Source: an uncultured Desulfuromonadales bacterium (GTDB taxonomy: Bacteria > Desulfobacterota > Desulfuromonadia > Desulfuromonadales > Trichloromonadaceae). From it: a DNA stretch of 35,918 nucleotides. Within the stretch, counting starts at the first letter, position 1, and the number at the start of each line of letters is the position of its first letter. A program made the translations under genes and the position numbers. The notes below the pieces were generated by a model. The model ran no database searches and was not told the origin of the DNA. It worked only from the letters and a program-made list of their open reading frames with translations. This document shows positions 2,877-16,950 of the stretch, piece by piece. The stretch is taken from positions 1-35,918 of the forward strand of contig CALZIZ010000014.1 in NCBI GenBank assembly GCA_945787465.1, in the 5' to 3' direction.

Positions 2877-3860
2877 TTGACATCACACCGCAAACAGATT
2901 CTGCAATGGGCCCGGCAGGGGCACCTGAAAAAAGACTCGCTCCCTAATGCTTTTCGCCTGGCTGAAGCTGAGCCCTGCCCCGGAGACTGGGGCCAGTTTC
3001 TCGATGGCCTGATGCTTTGGTTCGGTGCCATCTTCATGGCCATCGGGGTTATCTTCTTTTTTGCCTTCAACTGGCAGGAGATGGGACGCCTTGCCAAGTT
3101 CGGGCTTGTTGAAATCTGTATCGTTGCGGCCGTTGCCATCTGCTGGAAGCTCGGTCTCGATCGGTTGTCGGGCAAGGCCGCCCTGTTCGCTGCAACACTT
3201 CTGATCGGCGCCCTGCTCGCATTGGTCGGCCAGACCTACCAGACCGGGGCCGACCCCTGGCAGCTCTTTGCCACCTGGGCCCTGATGGTTCTGCCCTGGG
3301 TTGCCATCGGTCGCTTCGGTGCTCTGCTGCTGTTCTGGATTGGGCTGGTCAACCTCTCCCTCCTGCTGTATTTTCAGACCTTTCCCCGCGCTTTCGGATG
3401 GATCGGTTTGCTCTTCAGCACCGAGACCTTGCTCTGGACCCTCTTTGTTTTGAACACAGTCGCCTTGGGACTCTGGGAGTTTGCCGCACAGCGCAAGGTC
3501 GCCTGGTTGGGCGAACGCTGGCCGCTTCGGGTGCTGGCCTTTGCCAGCGGCGGTCTGATCACTACTCTTGCTGTCTTGGCGCTTGTCGACAGCCGCCATT
3601 TCAACCTTTTGGAAATGGCGACCTACTTTGTCTGGCTGGCAGCAGGGTGTGTCATCTACCGCCATAAAATTCAGGATATCTTTGTTCTGACCGGCGGGGT
3701 GTTGAGCGTCATCATTGTTGTCACGGCATGGCTGGCCAAGCAGCTGCTGTTCCACGGGGAGAGTGCCGGGGCGTTGCTGATGATCGGCATGACAGTGATC
3801 GGCCTGTCGGCTGCCGGCGGGTTCTGGCTGAAATCAATCGCCCAGGAGAAAAACCCATGA
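2877..3860 (+). CDS. DUF2157 multi-pass membrane protein
   Basis: This 327-residue protein has a short soluble N-terminus (residues 1-40, rich in charged residues) followed by about ten hydrophobic segments to the C-terminus, matching the DUF2157 layout. The start is TTG at 2877, preceded by AAGGA at 2866-2870 with 6-nt spacing. No ATG is better placed. Its stop overlaps the next gene's start as ATGA (3857-3860), so translation is probably coupled. DUF2157, DUF4401 and GDYXXLXY genes are known to occur together in many proteobacteria, but their job is not established. It lies 69 bases after the ABC ATPase in the same direction; whether it shares that transcript is unclear. Confidence 0.8.
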   Translation: MTSHRKQILQWARQGHLKKDSLPNAFRLAEAEPCPGDWGQFLDGLMLWFGAIFMAIGVIFFFAFNWQEMGRLAKFGLVEICIVAAVAICWKLGLDRLSGKAALFAATLLIGALLALVGQTYQTGADPWQLFATWALMVLPWVAIGRFGALLLFWIGLVNLSLLLYFQTFPRAFGWIGLLFSTETLLWTLFVLNTVALGLWEFAAQRKVAWLGERWPLRVLAFASGGLITTLAVLALVDSRHFNLLEMATYFVWLAAGCVIYRHKIQDIFVLTGGVLSVIIVVTAWLAKQLLFHGESAGALLMIGMTVIGLSAAGGFWLKSIAQEKNP

Positions 3861-4942
3861 ACACCCTGTCCAGTAAGGCATTGTGGCAGCAGCTGCACGA
3901 CAAGGGCCTGGTTGAGGGGGATCTGCCACCAGCTGGAAAAACCGAGTCGCTCTGGTACGTGCGCTTCATGCTCGGAGCGGCCGGGTGGATCGGCTCCCTT
4001 TTTCTGCTTGGCTTTGTCGCAGTTGGTTTCTCATTCGTGGTCGATAGCCCAATGGCCGCTCTGGTCGTCGGCGCCCTTGCCTGCGGCGGCGCCTTCGCGC
4101 TTTTTTTCAACGCCCGCGATAACGATTTTTTCACCCAATTCGCTTTGGCCGTCGGCCTGGCCGGTCAGCTGCTGCTGATATACGGTCTTTTCGAACTGTT
4201 CGAGGGAAATGAGGTGCTCTTCTACGGCACTGTTTTTGTTCTCGAAGCGGTACTGACCGTCGTTATCCCCAACTTTATATATCGCGTGATGACCAGCCTG
4301 GCAGCGATGGTTGCACTCTGTTTGACTCTCTCCAGTGGCGGCGCCTACGGGATTGCACCGGGCCTGAGCGCTGCCGGGTTTGCCCTTATCTGGCTGCAGG
4401 AGAGCCGCTGGGTCGGATTCAGCGCCATCTGCCGGCCGGCCGGTTACGGGTTCGCCCTCTCTCTGCTGCTCTACTGGGCCAGCATGCTCTGGGGTCGGGC
4501 ACTCTGGTGGCCGCGATCTTACAAAGGTGCGAGCTGGATTTCCGTCTACGCCCCCTGGCTTGGCAAGGCACTGGTTCTGGCGGTTTTTCTTGCCGTCGTC
4601 TTTGTTTTGCTCAAACGCATGCATTTAGCAGCCGGAAGCCGATCAGGTCTGACCGCCCTTGGTGGCGCAACCCTGGTATTGTTGGGGTCTTTTCCTGTGC
4701 CAGGGATTGCTGAGGCGCTTCTGATTATGATCATCGGCTTTTCAATCTGCAACCGGGTGCTGATGGGGCTCGGCCTGCTGGCCTTCGGCGTTTTTCTCTC
4801 CAACTATTACTACATGATGCAATCAACCCTGCTGGAGAAATCTCTGCTCCTTTTTGGCCTCGGCGCCGGGCTGCTCGTCAGTCGCCTGGTGCTGGGAAAA
4901 TGGCTGCCCCCTGCAGCACTGGGAGGGCAGGCCGATGCGTAA
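3857..4942 (+). CDS. DUF4401 multi-pass membrane protein
   Basis: This 361-residue protein begins with a soluble 30-residue stretch (MNTLSSKALWQQLHDKG) and continues with about ten membrane segments. This is the organisation of DUF4401 proteins, the usual partner of DUF2157 proteins. The start is set by the ATGA overlap with the upstream stop and the AGGAG about 8 bases upstream; the longer frame opening at 3728 would run far into the upstream gene. The end overlaps the next gene by 8 bases. Function is unknown. The tight overlaps on both sides suggest the three products are made together in the inner membrane. Confidence 0.8.
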   Translation: MNTLSSKALWQQLHDKGLVEGDLPPAGKTESLWYVRFMLGAAGWIGSLFLLGFVAVGFSFVVDSPMAALVVGALACGGAFALFFNARDNDFFTQFALAVGLAGQLLLIYGLFELFEGNEVLFYGTVFVLEAVLTVVIPNFIYRVMTSLAAMVALCLTLSSGGAYGIAPGLSAAGFALIWLQESRWVGFSAICRPAGYGFALSLLLYWASMLWGRALWWPRSYKGASWISVYAPWLGKALVLAVFLAVVFVLLKRMHLAAGSRSGLTALGGATLVLLGSFPVPGIAEALLIMIIGFSICNRVLMGLGLLAFGVFLSNYYYMMQSTLLEKSLLLFGLGAGLLVSRLVLGKWLPPAALGGQADA

Positions 4943-5429
4943 GCTTATACTGGTGCTGACGACCCTGCTGGTGCTTGCGGCGGTTAACTTCAATATTTAC
5001 CAGCGCGAACAGTTGATCAGCAGCGGCCGCGTGGTGTTGCTGGAACTTGCGCCGGTCGATCCGCGCTCGCTTATGCAGGGCGACTACATGGCACTGCGCT
5101 TCAAGGCCGCGAACCGGGCTTTTGCGCAGAAAGACCTGCAAACCCTTAAGGACGGTCATCTGGTGGTCACCCTCGATGACCAAAACCGGGCCTCATTCAA
5201 CCGCTTTGCCGAGTCGTCAATCCTTGCCGACAACGAAATCCTGCTGCGCTATCGCATCCGCAACGGGAAACCCAAGTTTGCCACAAATGCTTTCTTTTTT
5301 CAGGAAGGTCATGCCAAGGCTTACGAAAGTGCCCGCTATGGTGAATTTCGCGTTGCACCCGATGGCGAAATGATTCTGACCCGGATGCGGGATCGAAACC
5401 TGGTTGTGCTTGGGGCTGGTAAACCTTAA
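4935..5429 (+). CDS. GDYXXLXY-motif membrane-anchored protein
   Basis: This 164-residue protein has one N-terminal hydrophobic segment (residues 3-18) and an exported or periplasmic domain. The family-naming motif appears as GDYMALRF at residues 49-56, right after the VDPRSLMQ lead-in typical of the family. ATG 4935 is chosen because GGGAGGG at 4920-4926 precedes it and it overlaps the DUF4401 stop (4940-4942). The longer frame from 4854 lacks a ribosome site. It is the last gene of the DUF2157-DUF4401-GDYXXLXY trio; the family is conserved in this order, but no biochemical role is known. Confidence 0.82.
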   Translation: MRKLILVLTTLLVLAAVNFNIYQREQLISSGRVVLLELAPVDPRSLMQGDYMALRFKAANRAFAQKDLQTLKDGHLVVTLDDQNRASFNRFAESSILADNEILLRYRIRNGKPKFATNAFFFQEGHAKAYESARYGEFRVAPDGEMILTRMRDRNLVVLGAGKP

Positions 5430-6254: not shown

Positions 6255-8476
6255 TTAGAAGTTCTCTGGCGGGGTTGAAGAGACAAAGAAAACGGGGCAG
6301 GGCGCCTCGGAAATAACCCTGTCAACGCTGCTGCCAAGCTTCACGTAGTCCTGCCGCTCGATACCGCCACTTCCATGTGATGCCAGGACAATGAGATCAA
6401 TCCCTTCCCTTTTTGCGACCTCTAAGATAGTTCTCGCAGCCCCTGAGCCGGACACCTCTTTATGAACCGGAATTCTCATCTGGGCAAATTTAAACGCCAG
6501 ATTTGAGAGGTAGTCCTCCAGGCTGGACTGCAGTTCTGTATTTCCCTCTTCTTCCGGCACTGACAGGAGCCAGACCCCAGAATGAAACCGCAAAGCAAGC
6601 GCCATGGCAAAAGGGATACATTGTTCAGAGATGGGAGACCCATCGAGAGGGACGAGAATCCTCCCAAAGTCACTGCGGCGGCAGCGCCAGTCGTCGACCG
6701 GCCTGACAATGAGCAGAGGCGGAGTCGTCTCATAAATGACATTATAGGTCACCACAGACGACAGCAACCTTTCTGCCGGGGTCTTGCCAAAAGTGGTCAT
6801 CACCACCAGATCAAAGTGGCCTTTATTGCAGAGACGAACAATGACCTCAGCCGGGTCTCCTTTGATGATACGACGGGTGACCTCTTCCCCTGAATGCGAC
6901 ATCTGCCCCGCGACCTGCCGGAGGTACAGCGCTGCTTCGCGGGCAGCCATTTCTGTATCATCCTCACCAATCACGGTTACGAGCGTTATCGACGCACCAT
7001 ATTCTCTGGACAGCTTTAAGGCCGAGGGCAGGCTGGACTCGGCATTTTCCGTTCCGTCCAGGGGAACCAGGATTTTCTTCAGATTATAAACGGTCACCGG
7101 GACCATTCGCCTCATGGGCGTAAGCGGCGTGGACTCGAGGATCACATTGAGACGGTCCTGCAGCCGGGCTGGAGCCCCCAGCTTGGTTCGAAAGTGGTTA
7201 AAGGCGAGGAAAAACAGCGGGACCAGGAGAAGGTACATCCAGGCACCCTCAAAAAATCTCTCTTCAAAAATAATCAGAGTTGCAAGGGTTGAGAGGATGG
7301 ATGCGCCAAGGGTCAGAAACAAAGCAATAATGTCATTGAAGACCCAACCCGACTTCAATTTCCTCACCAGTCTTCTGGTCGTGGCCCATCCTGTCATACT
7401 GAGAAGGATAAAGACGCCCGCGGCATAAAGAGCCAGGTACGTCTCTTCCCTGGTTCCAAACGCAAGAAAGCAGCCGACCACCACGGTGACCTGGAACCAG
7501 ACCGGAAGGGTGGGAACATCAAAGCGATTTCTTACCCCCCAGTAGCCGGGGATGTAATGGCGGAGCTTGAGGCCCAGGGAGAGGTTTTGAATTCCCTGGG
7601 CACTGGCGGCAGCAGCTGAAAGCAATACGGCGATGCCGATGAAACTGCCCAGGTAGGCCAGAGGGACGGGCAGGAGATGGTCCATCGTCTGAGTAAAAAC
7701 AGAAACTTCTGAGTTTGCCGGATCGGCCAGTGCCAGAATCGCGGGACCGACAATGACCATGGTCAAGGCCGTGGTCCCCATGATGATCACCAGGCTCCCG
7801 AAAGCTTTGCGACTTTTTTCCCGTGCCGTGCCCTCATAGGCGGCGACCAGGTTGGCAAAAATCTCGATCCCCGTCATGAGCGCCAGAATGCGGGCGTAGC
7901 CGCCAAGGGTAAAGTGGATGTATTCTCCGGAGAAGGCCCGCAAATCAATTTGTGGTAAATGCAAGCCGCGCTGATAGATAACCGCAAGGATCATAGCCCA
8001 GAGCAGGATCAGCACAGCGGCTGTGGCCGGGCCGAAGAACCTGGCCGAAATCATCGGCCCCCGATTCACCAGGTAGCCCACGACAAGGGTAAATAGGACA
8101 GCGACAACGCCCCTTATATCAGTGAACAGGAACTGCTCGTTGAGGACAGGGAAGCGGTCGGCAATGAAGGTGACCAGGGCAGCGATACTGACCAGAAAGG
8201 TCAGCGTGTATTCGATAACCGTGATCGCAGCGTTGGTTTTTACCGCCCAACTGCCGAATTCTTCCTCGCGACATAGCGATACATTGCCGAAACAGCAAAG
8301 ACTGTGAAGACGGCCATCCAGACGGAGGACCCGAAAGTGACCGACGCCACGCCTGCGCCGACAATAAGACTCAGGAACGGGCCAAATACATAGAGCGGAG
8401 AGGTCGCGGGATCCCCCCCGCCCGCGAGTGCTCCCTGGAGTGAATTCTTCAATTTATAGGAGATTGATGCGCTCAC
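6255..8476 (-). pseudogene. APC-superfamily permease fused to two UspA domains, frameshifted
   Basis: The reading starts at GTG 8476 with two membrane segments, including GDPATSPLYVFG, and runs in frame to about 8265 (AMYRYVARK). It must then change frame to continue with EEEFGSWAVKTNAA and the rest. The second part (open to 6255; first ATG 8081) holds about ten more membrane segments and then two UspA domains with ILVPLDG and ILVPLDGSP starts and nucleotide-loop motifs near each end (GKTPAERLLSS, GSGG). The expected Gly-rich loop between segments 2 and 3 is absent at the switch, so a small out-of-frame deletion is more likely than a single-base slip. If real, the gene is broken; if an assembly error, it encodes a stress-linked transporter of about 730 residues. 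Confidence 0.75.
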
Positions 8477-14535: not shown

Positions 14536-14564
14536 TTGACAAGAGGATATTGGCCACCGATAAT
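14536..14564 (+). promoter_or_regulatory. Sigma-70 promoter upstream of nadB
   Basis: TTGACA (14536-14541), a 17-base spacer and GATAAT (14559-14564) form a near-consensus promoter. The start would fall near 14571, giving a leader of about 117 bases before nadB. Confidence 0.65.
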
Positions 14565-14687: not shown

Positions 14688-16286
14688 ATGAAGATCACAT
14701 CTGACTTTCTGGTTATCGGCAGCGGTATTGCCGGCCTGTCTTTTGCTCTCAAGGTGGCCGACCGGGGCAGCGTATCACTGGTGACCAAGCGGGGCATTTC
14801 AGAAACAGCAACCGATCTTGCCCAGGGCGGTATCGCTTCGGTCTTTTCCGAGGAAGACACCTACGAAGCCCATGTTCAGGACACAATGGTGGCAGGGGTC
14901 CACCTGTCCCACCCTGACATCGTGCAACTGGTGGTCGAAAGCGGCCCCCAGGCGATCCGCGACCTCATCGACTGGGGGGTCCAGTTCTCCAGGAAGGAAG
15001 ACGGAACCTACGATCTCACCCGCGAGGGCGGCCACAGTCAACGCCGCATCCTCCACGCCAAAGATGTAACAGGTCGTGAAATTGAGCGTGCGCTGGTCGA
15101 GGCGGTCCATCAACACCCGAATATCACCCTTTATGAAAATCACATCGCGGTGGACCTGATCACCGAGGCCAAAATTACCCAACGACGGGTTAAACCCGAC
15201 CGTTGCCTCGGTGCTTATGTGCTCGATATCGGCAATAGCGAAGTTGTCTCTTTCGGTGCCCGCTCCACAGTGCTTGCCACCGGCGGCGCCGGCAAGGTCT
15301 ACCTTTACACCTGCAACCCCGACATCGCCACGGGCGATGGCCTGGCAATGGCCTACCGGGCAGGTGCCACTGTTGCCAACATGGAGTTCATGCAGTTCCA
15401 CCCCACCACCCTGTATCATCCCCACGCCAAATCATTTCTGATTTCCGAAGCGGTGCGTGGTGAAGGGGCTATTCTCAAACGCCGCGACGGTAGCGCCTTT
15501 ATGGAGGCCTACCATCCCCTCAAGGACCTGGCCCCCAGGGACATCGTGGCCAGAGCCATAGACAACGAGATGAAAACCCATGGCGACGACTGTGTCTTTC
15601 TGGACATCACCCATAAAGGGGCGGACTACATCAAGGATCGCTTTCCCAACATCTACCAGACCTGCCTCTCCTACGGAATCGACATGGTATCCGACCCCAT
15701 CCCGGTGGTTCCGGCAGCCCACTATCTGTGCGGCGGGATCAAGGTCGACAGCTGGGGCGAAACCGACCTCCAGAACCTGTTCGCCATCGGCGAAGTCTCA
15801 TTCACCGGCCTGCATGGCGCCAACCGCCTGGCCAGCAACAGCCTTCTCGAAGGGGTGGTTTATGCCGACCGGGCGGCACAGAGGACTCTGAAGCTGCTGG
15901 CCGAAAAAGAGACCATCTACCCGAGCATCGCCCCCTGGGACAGCGGCAGCGCCACCAACAGCGACGAGGAAGTCGTCGTGGCCCACAATTGGGACGAAAT
16001 CCGCCGTTGCATGTGGAACTATGTGGGGATTGTCCGCTCCACCAAACGCCTGACCAGGGCGCTGCGCAGAATTCAGATGATCCAGGAAGAGATCGCTGAT
16101 TATTACTGGGATTTCTACATCACCTCGGACCTCATTGAATTGCGCAATATCGCCACCGTAGCCGAACTCATCGTCCGATGCGGCCTGCAGCGCAAGGAGA
16201 GCCGGGGCCTTCACTACACCATCGACTACCCCGAAACCGACGATATTCACTGGAAACAAGACACGATCATTCGCAAAAACTTTTAG
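14688..16286 (+). CDS. nadB: L-aspartate oxidase
   Basis: This 532-residue flavoprotein converts L-aspartate to iminoaspartate, the first step of de novo NAD synthesis. The N-terminal FAD dinucleotide motif is IGSGIAGLS (about 10-18). The active-site segments TDLAQGGIA, EGGHSQRRI, EFMQFHPTTLY, SEAVRGEGA and ARDIVARAI follow in family order, with HGANRLASNSLLEG near residue 380 and a C-terminal helical domain. Length is normal. No nadA or nadC is in the window. It appears to be the first gene of a unit with a chorismate mutase (9 bases downstream) and a small DAHP-synthase-like domain. Confidence 0.96.
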   Translation: MKITSDFLVIGSGIAGLSFALKVADRGSVSLVTKRGISETATDLAQGGIASVFSEEDTYEAHVQDTMVAGVHLSHPDIVQLVVESGPQAIRDLIDWGVQFSRKEDGTYDLTREGGHSQRRILHAKDVTGREIERALVEAVHQHPNITLYENHIAVDLITEAKITQRRVKPDRCLGAYVLDIGNSEVVSFGARSTVLATGGAGKVYLYTCNPDIATGDGLAMAYRAGATVANMEFMQFHPTTLYHPHAKSFLISEAVRGEGAILKRRDGSAFMEAYHPLKDLAPRDIVARAIDNEMKTHGDDCVFLDITHKGADYIKDRFPNIYQTCLSYGIDMVSDPIPVVPAAHYLCGGIKVDSWGETDLQNLFAIGEVSFTGLHGANRLASNSLLEGVVYADRAAQRTLKLLAEKETIYPSIAPWDSGSATNSDEEVVVAHNWDEIRRCMWNYVGIVRSTKRLTRALRRIQMIQEEIADYYWDFYITSDLIELRNIATVAELIVRCGLQRKESRGLHYTIDYPETDDIHWKQDTIIRKNF

Positions 16287-16295
16287 GAGTACACC

Positions 16296-16568
16296 TTGGA
16301 TATCGACCAGATTCGCAAGGAAATCGACCGCCTGGACCAGGAATTGCTGAGAATTTTCAACGAGCGGGCCAGCCTGGCCCTGAAAATCGGCGAGATCAAA
16401 AAGGTCCAGGGCATCCCCGTTTATGACCCGACGCGGGAAAAACGCATTTTTGCCAAAATGCAGGCCGCCAATCCCGGCCCTCTTGAGAACAGCGCGATCG
16501 TGCGCCTGTTCGAGCGCGTTATCGACGAGTCCCGGCGCCTTGAGCGCATACGCACGAAAGGAATCTAA
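16296..16568 (+). CDS. AroQ-type chorismate mutase, stand-alone
   Basis: This 90-residue all-helical protein has the AroQ pattern: IRKEIDRLDQELLRIFNERASLALKIGEIK (Arg and Lys of the first helix), then VYDPTREKRIF, then the third helix with an Arg-rich end. It interconverts chorismate and prephenate on the way to phenylalanine and tyrosine, or acts as a regulatory partner of DAHP synthase. The start is TTG 16296, with AGGAG at 16285-16289 and 6-base spacing. The next gene, 5 bases downstream, is a lone DAHP-synthase regulatory domain, which hints that this mutase may take part in feedback control as well as catalysis. Confidence 0.88.
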   Translation: MDIDQIRKEIDRLDQELLRIFNERASLALKIGEIKKVQGIPVYDPTREKRIFAKMQAANPGPLENSAIVRLFERVIDESRRLERIRTKGI

Positions 16569-16573
16569 GGCCC

Positions 16574-16783
16574 ATGCTTGTGGTGATGAAAAAGACCGCT
16601 ACCGAAGAAGAGTTGCAGGGAGTAAAAGAATTTCTGATCGGCCGGGATTTCGACTTTCACCAGTCCACTGGTGCCAATCGAACCATCATCGGAGTCATCG
16701 GGGAGACCGCCAACCTGAGCCTGCAGCAGATTCGCGACCTGCCCGGGGTACTTGAAGTTTTCAAGATCCCCGAAGAGGAATAA
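16574..16783 (+). CDS. Stand-alone ferredoxin-like regulatory domain of DAHP synthase
   Basis: This 69-residue protein matches the N-terminal ferredoxin-like domain of class-I-beta DAHP synthases: start LVVMKKTATEEEL, middle GANRTIIGVIGET, end LPGVLEVFKI. In full enzymes this is followed by a TIM barrel of about 260 residues; here a clean TAA follows after PEEE and no barrel sequence can be found downstream. In known enzymes this domain binds tyrosine or phenylalanine and gates the active site. It could act in trans on a separately encoded synthase, or be what remains of a truncated gene. Direct coupling to the chorismate mutase gene (5-base gap) favours a functional unit. Confidence 0.7.
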   Translation: MLVVMKKTATEEELQGVKEFLIGRDFDFHQSTGANRTIIGVIGETANLSLQQIRDLPGVLEVFKIPEEE

Positions 16784-16817: not shown

Positions 16818-16893
16818 CTTCGACAGGCTCAGCATGAACGGGCCCAGGGGCAATTGAATCCGTGAGATGCCGTTCGGCCTGAGCCTGTCGAAG
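16818..16893. repeat. Inverted repeat of the CTTCGACAGGCTCAG type
   Basis: The left arm CTTCGACAGGCTCAG continues to 16841 and the right arm, ending CTGAGCCTGTCGAAG at 16893, is its reverse complement apart from a three-base mismatch. This is a common class of dispersed intergenic hairpin found in many bacterial genomes. A weaker outer pair of AAGG/CCTT-rich words flanks it (16789-16812 and 16965-16998). Confidence 0.6.
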
Positions 16894-16910: not shown

Positions 16911-16950
16911 AAAAAAGGGACTGCGCCGAATCGGATCGGCGCAGCCCCTT
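16911..16950 (-). terminator. Rho-independent terminator for pyrE
   Basis: A 15-bp stem with one mismatch (16915-16929 with 16936-16950, 6-nt loop) is followed, on the minus strand, by six T residues (plus-strand AAAAAA at 16911-16916). It lies 50 bases past the pyrE stop. From the plus side the T-run is poor, so it mainly serves pyrE, though it may also slow transcripts from nadB. Confidence 0.75.

Follow-up and report, generated by a model that had tools for sequence, protein, structure and literature searches.

In the DAHP synthase of T. maritima, a ferredoxin-like domain (FXD) acts on the catalytic barrel, and the enzyme is closed by FXD-FXD contact. To our knowledge, no FXD has been found to act on a chorismate mutase (CM). 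An AroQ mutase that is made feedback-sensitive by a separate partner is represented by M. tuberculosis, in which CM and DAHP synthase form a non-covalent complex (PMC4281200). For G. metallireducens and G. sulfurreducens, a monofunctional chorismate mutase adjoining a gene product that resembles the Phe/Tyr-responsive domain of the T. maritima DAHP synthase (Gmet_1955/Gmet_1956, equal to GSU1828/GSU1829) was pointed out by Aklujkar et al. in 2009 (PMC2700814), in a short statement given without data, and the same regulation as is considered here was proposed. According to that description and to the class-wide search reported below, Gmet_1955/Gmet_1956 are almost certainly orthologous to the CM-FXD pair of the present locus. 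A search by locus tag returned only this one paper and no experimental test of the pair, in a coverage that leaves out most of the subscription literature.

The window, that is, the whole stretch of 35,918 nucleotides analysed here, belongs to an uncultured Desulfuromonadales bacterium. Its plus strand carries nadB for L-aspartate oxidase (14688..16286; NCBIfam PRK09077, 787.6 bits, over the cut-off) as the first gene of an operon, followed after 9 bases by aroQ for a monofunctional AroQ CM (16296..16568; 90 aa, TTG start; PF01817) and, after a further 5 bases, by a gene for a stand-alone DAHP-synthase FXD (16574..16783; 69 aa, ATG start, TAA stop; PF18152), all three on the same strand. The candidate operon promoter is a promoter-like site TTGACA-17-GATAAT located 5' of nadB (14536..14564, plus strand), which was scored at 11/12 in the consensus scan and is a consensus match only. 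The Shine-Dalgarno-like AAAGGA of the FXD gene sits within the end of the CM gene, which suggests that the translation of CM and that of FXD are coupled. Intergenic DNA and then the convergent pyrE follow 3' of the FXD gene, with neither a DAHP synthase frame nor a catalytic barrel, and a strong inverted repeat of 15 pairs between the operon and pyrE (16915..16950, a palindrome assigned to neither strand, called on the minus strand by the terminator scan) is a possible terminator shared by both. The operon linkage shows a shared function of the gene products, not their contact.

A palindromic repeat composed of two inverted copies of TTCGACAGGCTCAG (0.02 expected by chance) is located directly 3' of the operon at 16819-16892 and resembles the dispersed palindromic elements of environmental genomes. 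Elsewhere in the window, a cluster of three genes for function-unknown proteins (DUF2157, DUF4401 and GDYXXLXY) occupies 2877-5429. The ABC transporter ATPase encoded at 1974-2807 has an unusual sequence after the D-loop, and an obvious H-loop histidine region was seen in none of the frames; an internal deletion or a real variant is possible. On the minus strand at 6255-8476, a permease-like protein with universal-stress domains at its end seems to have its N-terminal permease-like part encoded apart, in another frame (8240-8476), which points to a frameshift or a sequencing error.

The FXD gene product was assigned to PF18152 (DAHP_snth_FXD) with E = 5.8e-19 and 68.1 bits versus the curated cut-off of 27, over positions 1-65 of 67. 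The earlier note on this DNA had read the locus as an AroQ mutase and a ferredoxin-like domain encoded side by side without a barrel, the latter as a lone 69-residue domain with a clean stop; both points are borne out by the matches to PF01817 and PF18152, by the near-complete coverage of the latter between ATG and TAA and by the lack of a synthase frame on the 3' side. An FXD-containing DAHP synthase of type I-beta holds the barrel in the same protein; here the protein comes to its stop after 69 aa. The structure model of the 69 residues (pLDDT 92.1) presents the beta-alpha-beta-beta-alpha-beta order, and its best matches by Foldseek were the FXDs of the DAHP synthases 4GRS/1RZM, with TM of 0.85-0.91 (E from 9e-6 to 3e-4 for 4GRS/1RZM/1VR6). 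4GRS is a chimeric DAHP synthase, and it is counted here as support for the FXD being a transferable module.

The CM was assigned to PF01817 with E = 2.3e-25 and 89 bits versus the cut-off of 27. With the catalytic register taken from the match to 1ECM (query 6-80 to chain 10-85), R7, R24, K35, R47, E48 and E83 were invariant among 27 relatives, and D44 and S79 were conserved in at least 90% of them. The E. coli catalytic residues R11, R28, K39, D48, R51, E52, S84 and Q88 are those which we take to have their equivalents in this CM, the one for position 88 being Glu, a conservative change; the catalytic residues are intact. The closest solved relatives of the CM are the CM domains of the DAHP synthase-CM fusions 2D8D, 5J6F and 3NVT, and this kinship leaves some room for a contact with DAHP synthase. 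Two CMs only were found in the genome, the second of which is fused to prephenate dehydratase and encoded beside tyrA on contig C239, and no CM was found on TyrA; this leaves the lone CM available for tyrosine synthesis.

The distribution of the free FXD was determined in the class formed by the relatives of Desulfuromonas and Geobacter, from which 98 genomes were sampled, and a strong short-frame match was defined as one with E below 1e-15. Such a match was present in 97 of the 98 genomes; the exception (G113) is also without nadB and without the lone CM, and its whole operon is either lost or in an assembly gap. The 58 genomes of the same order that were searched mostly contained three FXD copies, two as parts of full-length DAHP synthases and a third in a short frame. 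In all of the 50 short-frame loci fetched from this order, aroQ and the FXD gene were on one strand at a CM-FXD distance of 0-10 bases, and the FXD, with 55-74% identity and 68-77 aa, always had an ATG start; nadB preceded the pair in 49 loci, and the contig of the 50th ends just 5' of the CM. Among the named records, the free FXD was found by scan in Desulfuromonas, Geobacter, Geothermobacter, Geomobilimonas, Pelobacter and Geoalkalibacter. The dN/dS values of the closest free-FXD pairs, which are the only pairs cited because the distant ones were saturated and left unused, were from 0 to 0.16. The FXD reading frame is real and under purifying selection. Conserved stand-alone copies, for which the earlier note had suggested a search in relatives, are thus present across the class; a complete DAHP synthase in this position, named by the note as the mark of a truncation, was also looked for and was found in none of the same-order loci examined.

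Of 147 free-FXD loci, 146 had the CM gene directly 5' of the FXD gene and in the same orientation, mostly at a distance of 0-6 bases; the contig of the 147th ends there. All free FXDs formed one clade in the FXD tree (support 99/100), and the FXD-linked CMs formed one clade in the CM tree (support 100/98). A CM of this type was present in all 6 FXD-bearing genomes tested and in none of 24 FXD-less ones, four of which were from family f51. This family lies outside the class; in the sixteen loci read from it, the CM-FXD pair has no adjoining nadB, and in most of them the stop codon of CM and the start of FXD overlap. The nadB of the f51 genomes checked was located elsewhere. Family f51 was placed beside the Geobacter-like family f22 in both trees (CM 90/94, FXD 93/88), with moderate support and from short alignments. 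That CM and FXD give the same placement fits the two genes having been transferred together, and the pair may accordingly be taken, from these comparisons, as one transferable unit. In the loci examined from the same order and from f51, the pair had no neighbouring match to a DAHP synthase. A CM-FXD fusion of natural origin was not encountered: the extended open frames that surround the FXD in f51, as well as in some genomes of the class, were considered as such fusions and rejected, because they arise by chance where the FXD frame runs on across a CM encoded in a different frame. A read-through chain of CM and FXD, in which Gln stood in for the CM stop, was modelled with a pTM of 0.53 and no confident interface; since a single chain is unable to represent two homodimers, this model speaks neither for nor against contact.

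The residues H29, Q30, S31, T32 and G33 were identical in 147/147 free FXDs, and R36 was present in 143/147; from this conservation the segment H29-Q30-S31-T32-G33-A34-N35-R36 in the beta2-beta3 hairpin (codons 16658..16681, plus strand) is regarded as a putative ligand site. H29, S31, G33 and R36 are at the same positions in the T. maritima DAHP synthase, where, reportedly after Cross et al., His29 and Ser31 contact tyrosine at the effector site. Two DAHP synthases of the FXD type are encoded in the genome, and both carry an FXD themselves. The FXD-type DAHP synthases of the class (L196-L215, L001-L039) both have Ile at position 31, with H29/I31 in DAHPS_A and x29/I31 in DAHPS_B (position 29 varies), and among the DAHP synthases sampled from the rest of the phylum, most have H29/S31. 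The H29/S31 pair of the T. maritima type is therefore found, among the FXDs of this genome, only in the free FXD, which fits the conserved motif of the free FXD being that of a tyrosine sensor, so far as residue identities can tell. The claim made in 2009 that the free FXDs cluster with the domain of one DAHP synthase was examined on 65 columns, on which a grouping with either synthase type was not rejected. In this genome a DAHP synthase of the E. coli type is broken between the ends of two contigs (L004 and L005; contigs C106 and C135 of G000), where the assembly is thus incomplete.

On balance, the free FXD is probably a trans-acting regulatory subunit of the adjacent CM, which in a non-covalent complex would bring the mutase under feedback by an aromatic amino acid. 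CM and FXD would be made from one message and would form the complex; the ligand, an aromatic amino acid and most likely tyrosine (or phenylalanine), would be bound between two FXDs at H29-x-S31-x-G33, as in T. maritima; the binding would change the mutase activity, and the supply of prephenate for tyrosine would thereby follow the demand. The physical complex, the identity of the ligand and the direction of the effect are what we infer here. The CM is a likelier regulated partner than DAHP synthase because of the consistent pairing with CM, the f51 pair without nadB, the same placement in both trees and the lack of an adjoining DAHP synthase. The earlier note had proposed a trans-acting sensor which, together with the mutase, gates a separate DAHP synthase; the regulatory domain, conserved, stand-alone and genetically tied to CM, is retained from this proposal, and the gating of a separate synthase is not supported in the form proposed, as both FXD-type synthases own an FXD, none is beside the pair and the pair seems to move between lineages as CM and FXD alone.

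An action of the free FXD in trans on DAHP synthase itself, alone or in a three-way complex with CM, by pairing with the synthase FXDs and so restoring tyrosine sensitivity to enzymes with altered FXDs, is the main alternative, rather unlikely but deserving weight. Free FXD and DAHP synthase FXD belong to one domain family, the class synthases have I31 where the free FXD has H29/S31 like T. maritima and most non-class synthases sampled, and the CM is closest to DAHP synthase-fused CM domains; against these points, no synthase was matched beside the pair, f51 included, both synthases already have a full FXD, and the DAHP synthase of the f51 recipients keeps its own H29/S31 and so would have no need for a free FXD. 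Less probable again is a role in which the free FXD needs no ligand and, as a subunit, stabilises or assembles the CM, raising the activity or solubility of the mutase. The more than 100-fold activation of the M. tuberculosis CM by its partner (PMC4281200) is a parallel for such a role, and the positions of strongest conservation (H29-G33, I38, G40 and G43) could form a protein interface in place of a ligand site, but H29, S31, G33 and R36 are common with T. maritima position by position, which is a better fit to a retained ligand site. Little credence is given to a wider form of regulation, in which the tyrosine sensing of the class would have moved from the I31 DAHP synthases to the detached FXD as a shared soluble subunit gating both the mutase and the synthases in trans. 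That the free FXD, which corresponds to the N-terminal domain only, is a truncated remnant of a DAHP synthase gene has a practically negligible probability, given a single clade that recurs at one site in 97 of the 98 class genomes, uniform in length and low in dN/dS, and a full-length synthase in none of the loci examined at this site.

With the free FXD read as a regulatory subunit of CM, the locus is a known regulatory domain in detached form, within a conserved transferable two-gene unit that has been in print as a hypothesis since 2009. Should that reading hold, the locus would offer a clear natural example of an allosteric domain that exists apart from its enzyme and gives feedback in trans, the counterpart of the chimeric 4GRS; the pair, with 90 and 69 residues, would be a simple and testable model for the gain, loss and swapping of feedback modules. 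The T. maritima DAHP synthase (type I-beta; 1RZM, 3PG9) is alike in domain family, fold and the residues H29, S31, G33 and R36, but its FXD is N-terminal and fused to the catalytic barrel, whereas the FXD is alone here. In the DAHP synthase-CM fusions of Bacillus, Listeria, Geobacillus and Thermus (5GMU, 3NVT, 5J6F and 2D8D), the CM domains of which are the nearest solved relatives of this CM, CM is the regulatory domain of the fused synthase, whereas it is a separate enzyme here. The M. tuberculosis complex (PMC4281200) also has a monofunctional AroQ mutase regulated through a separate partner and is a precedent for the present proposal, but its mutase belongs to the AroQ-delta subclass and is partnered by an entire DAHP synthase, with no FXD protein taking part. 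The Geobacter pair (PMC2700814) has the same composition, a CM and an adjoining FXD-like protein, and the same regulatory proposal; what is added to it here is that the pair is near-universal in the class, that it probably moves as a unit, as its co-transfer outside the class would indicate, and that the free FXD retains the H29/S31 motif, a sensing motif no longer common to the resident FXD-type DAHP synthases.
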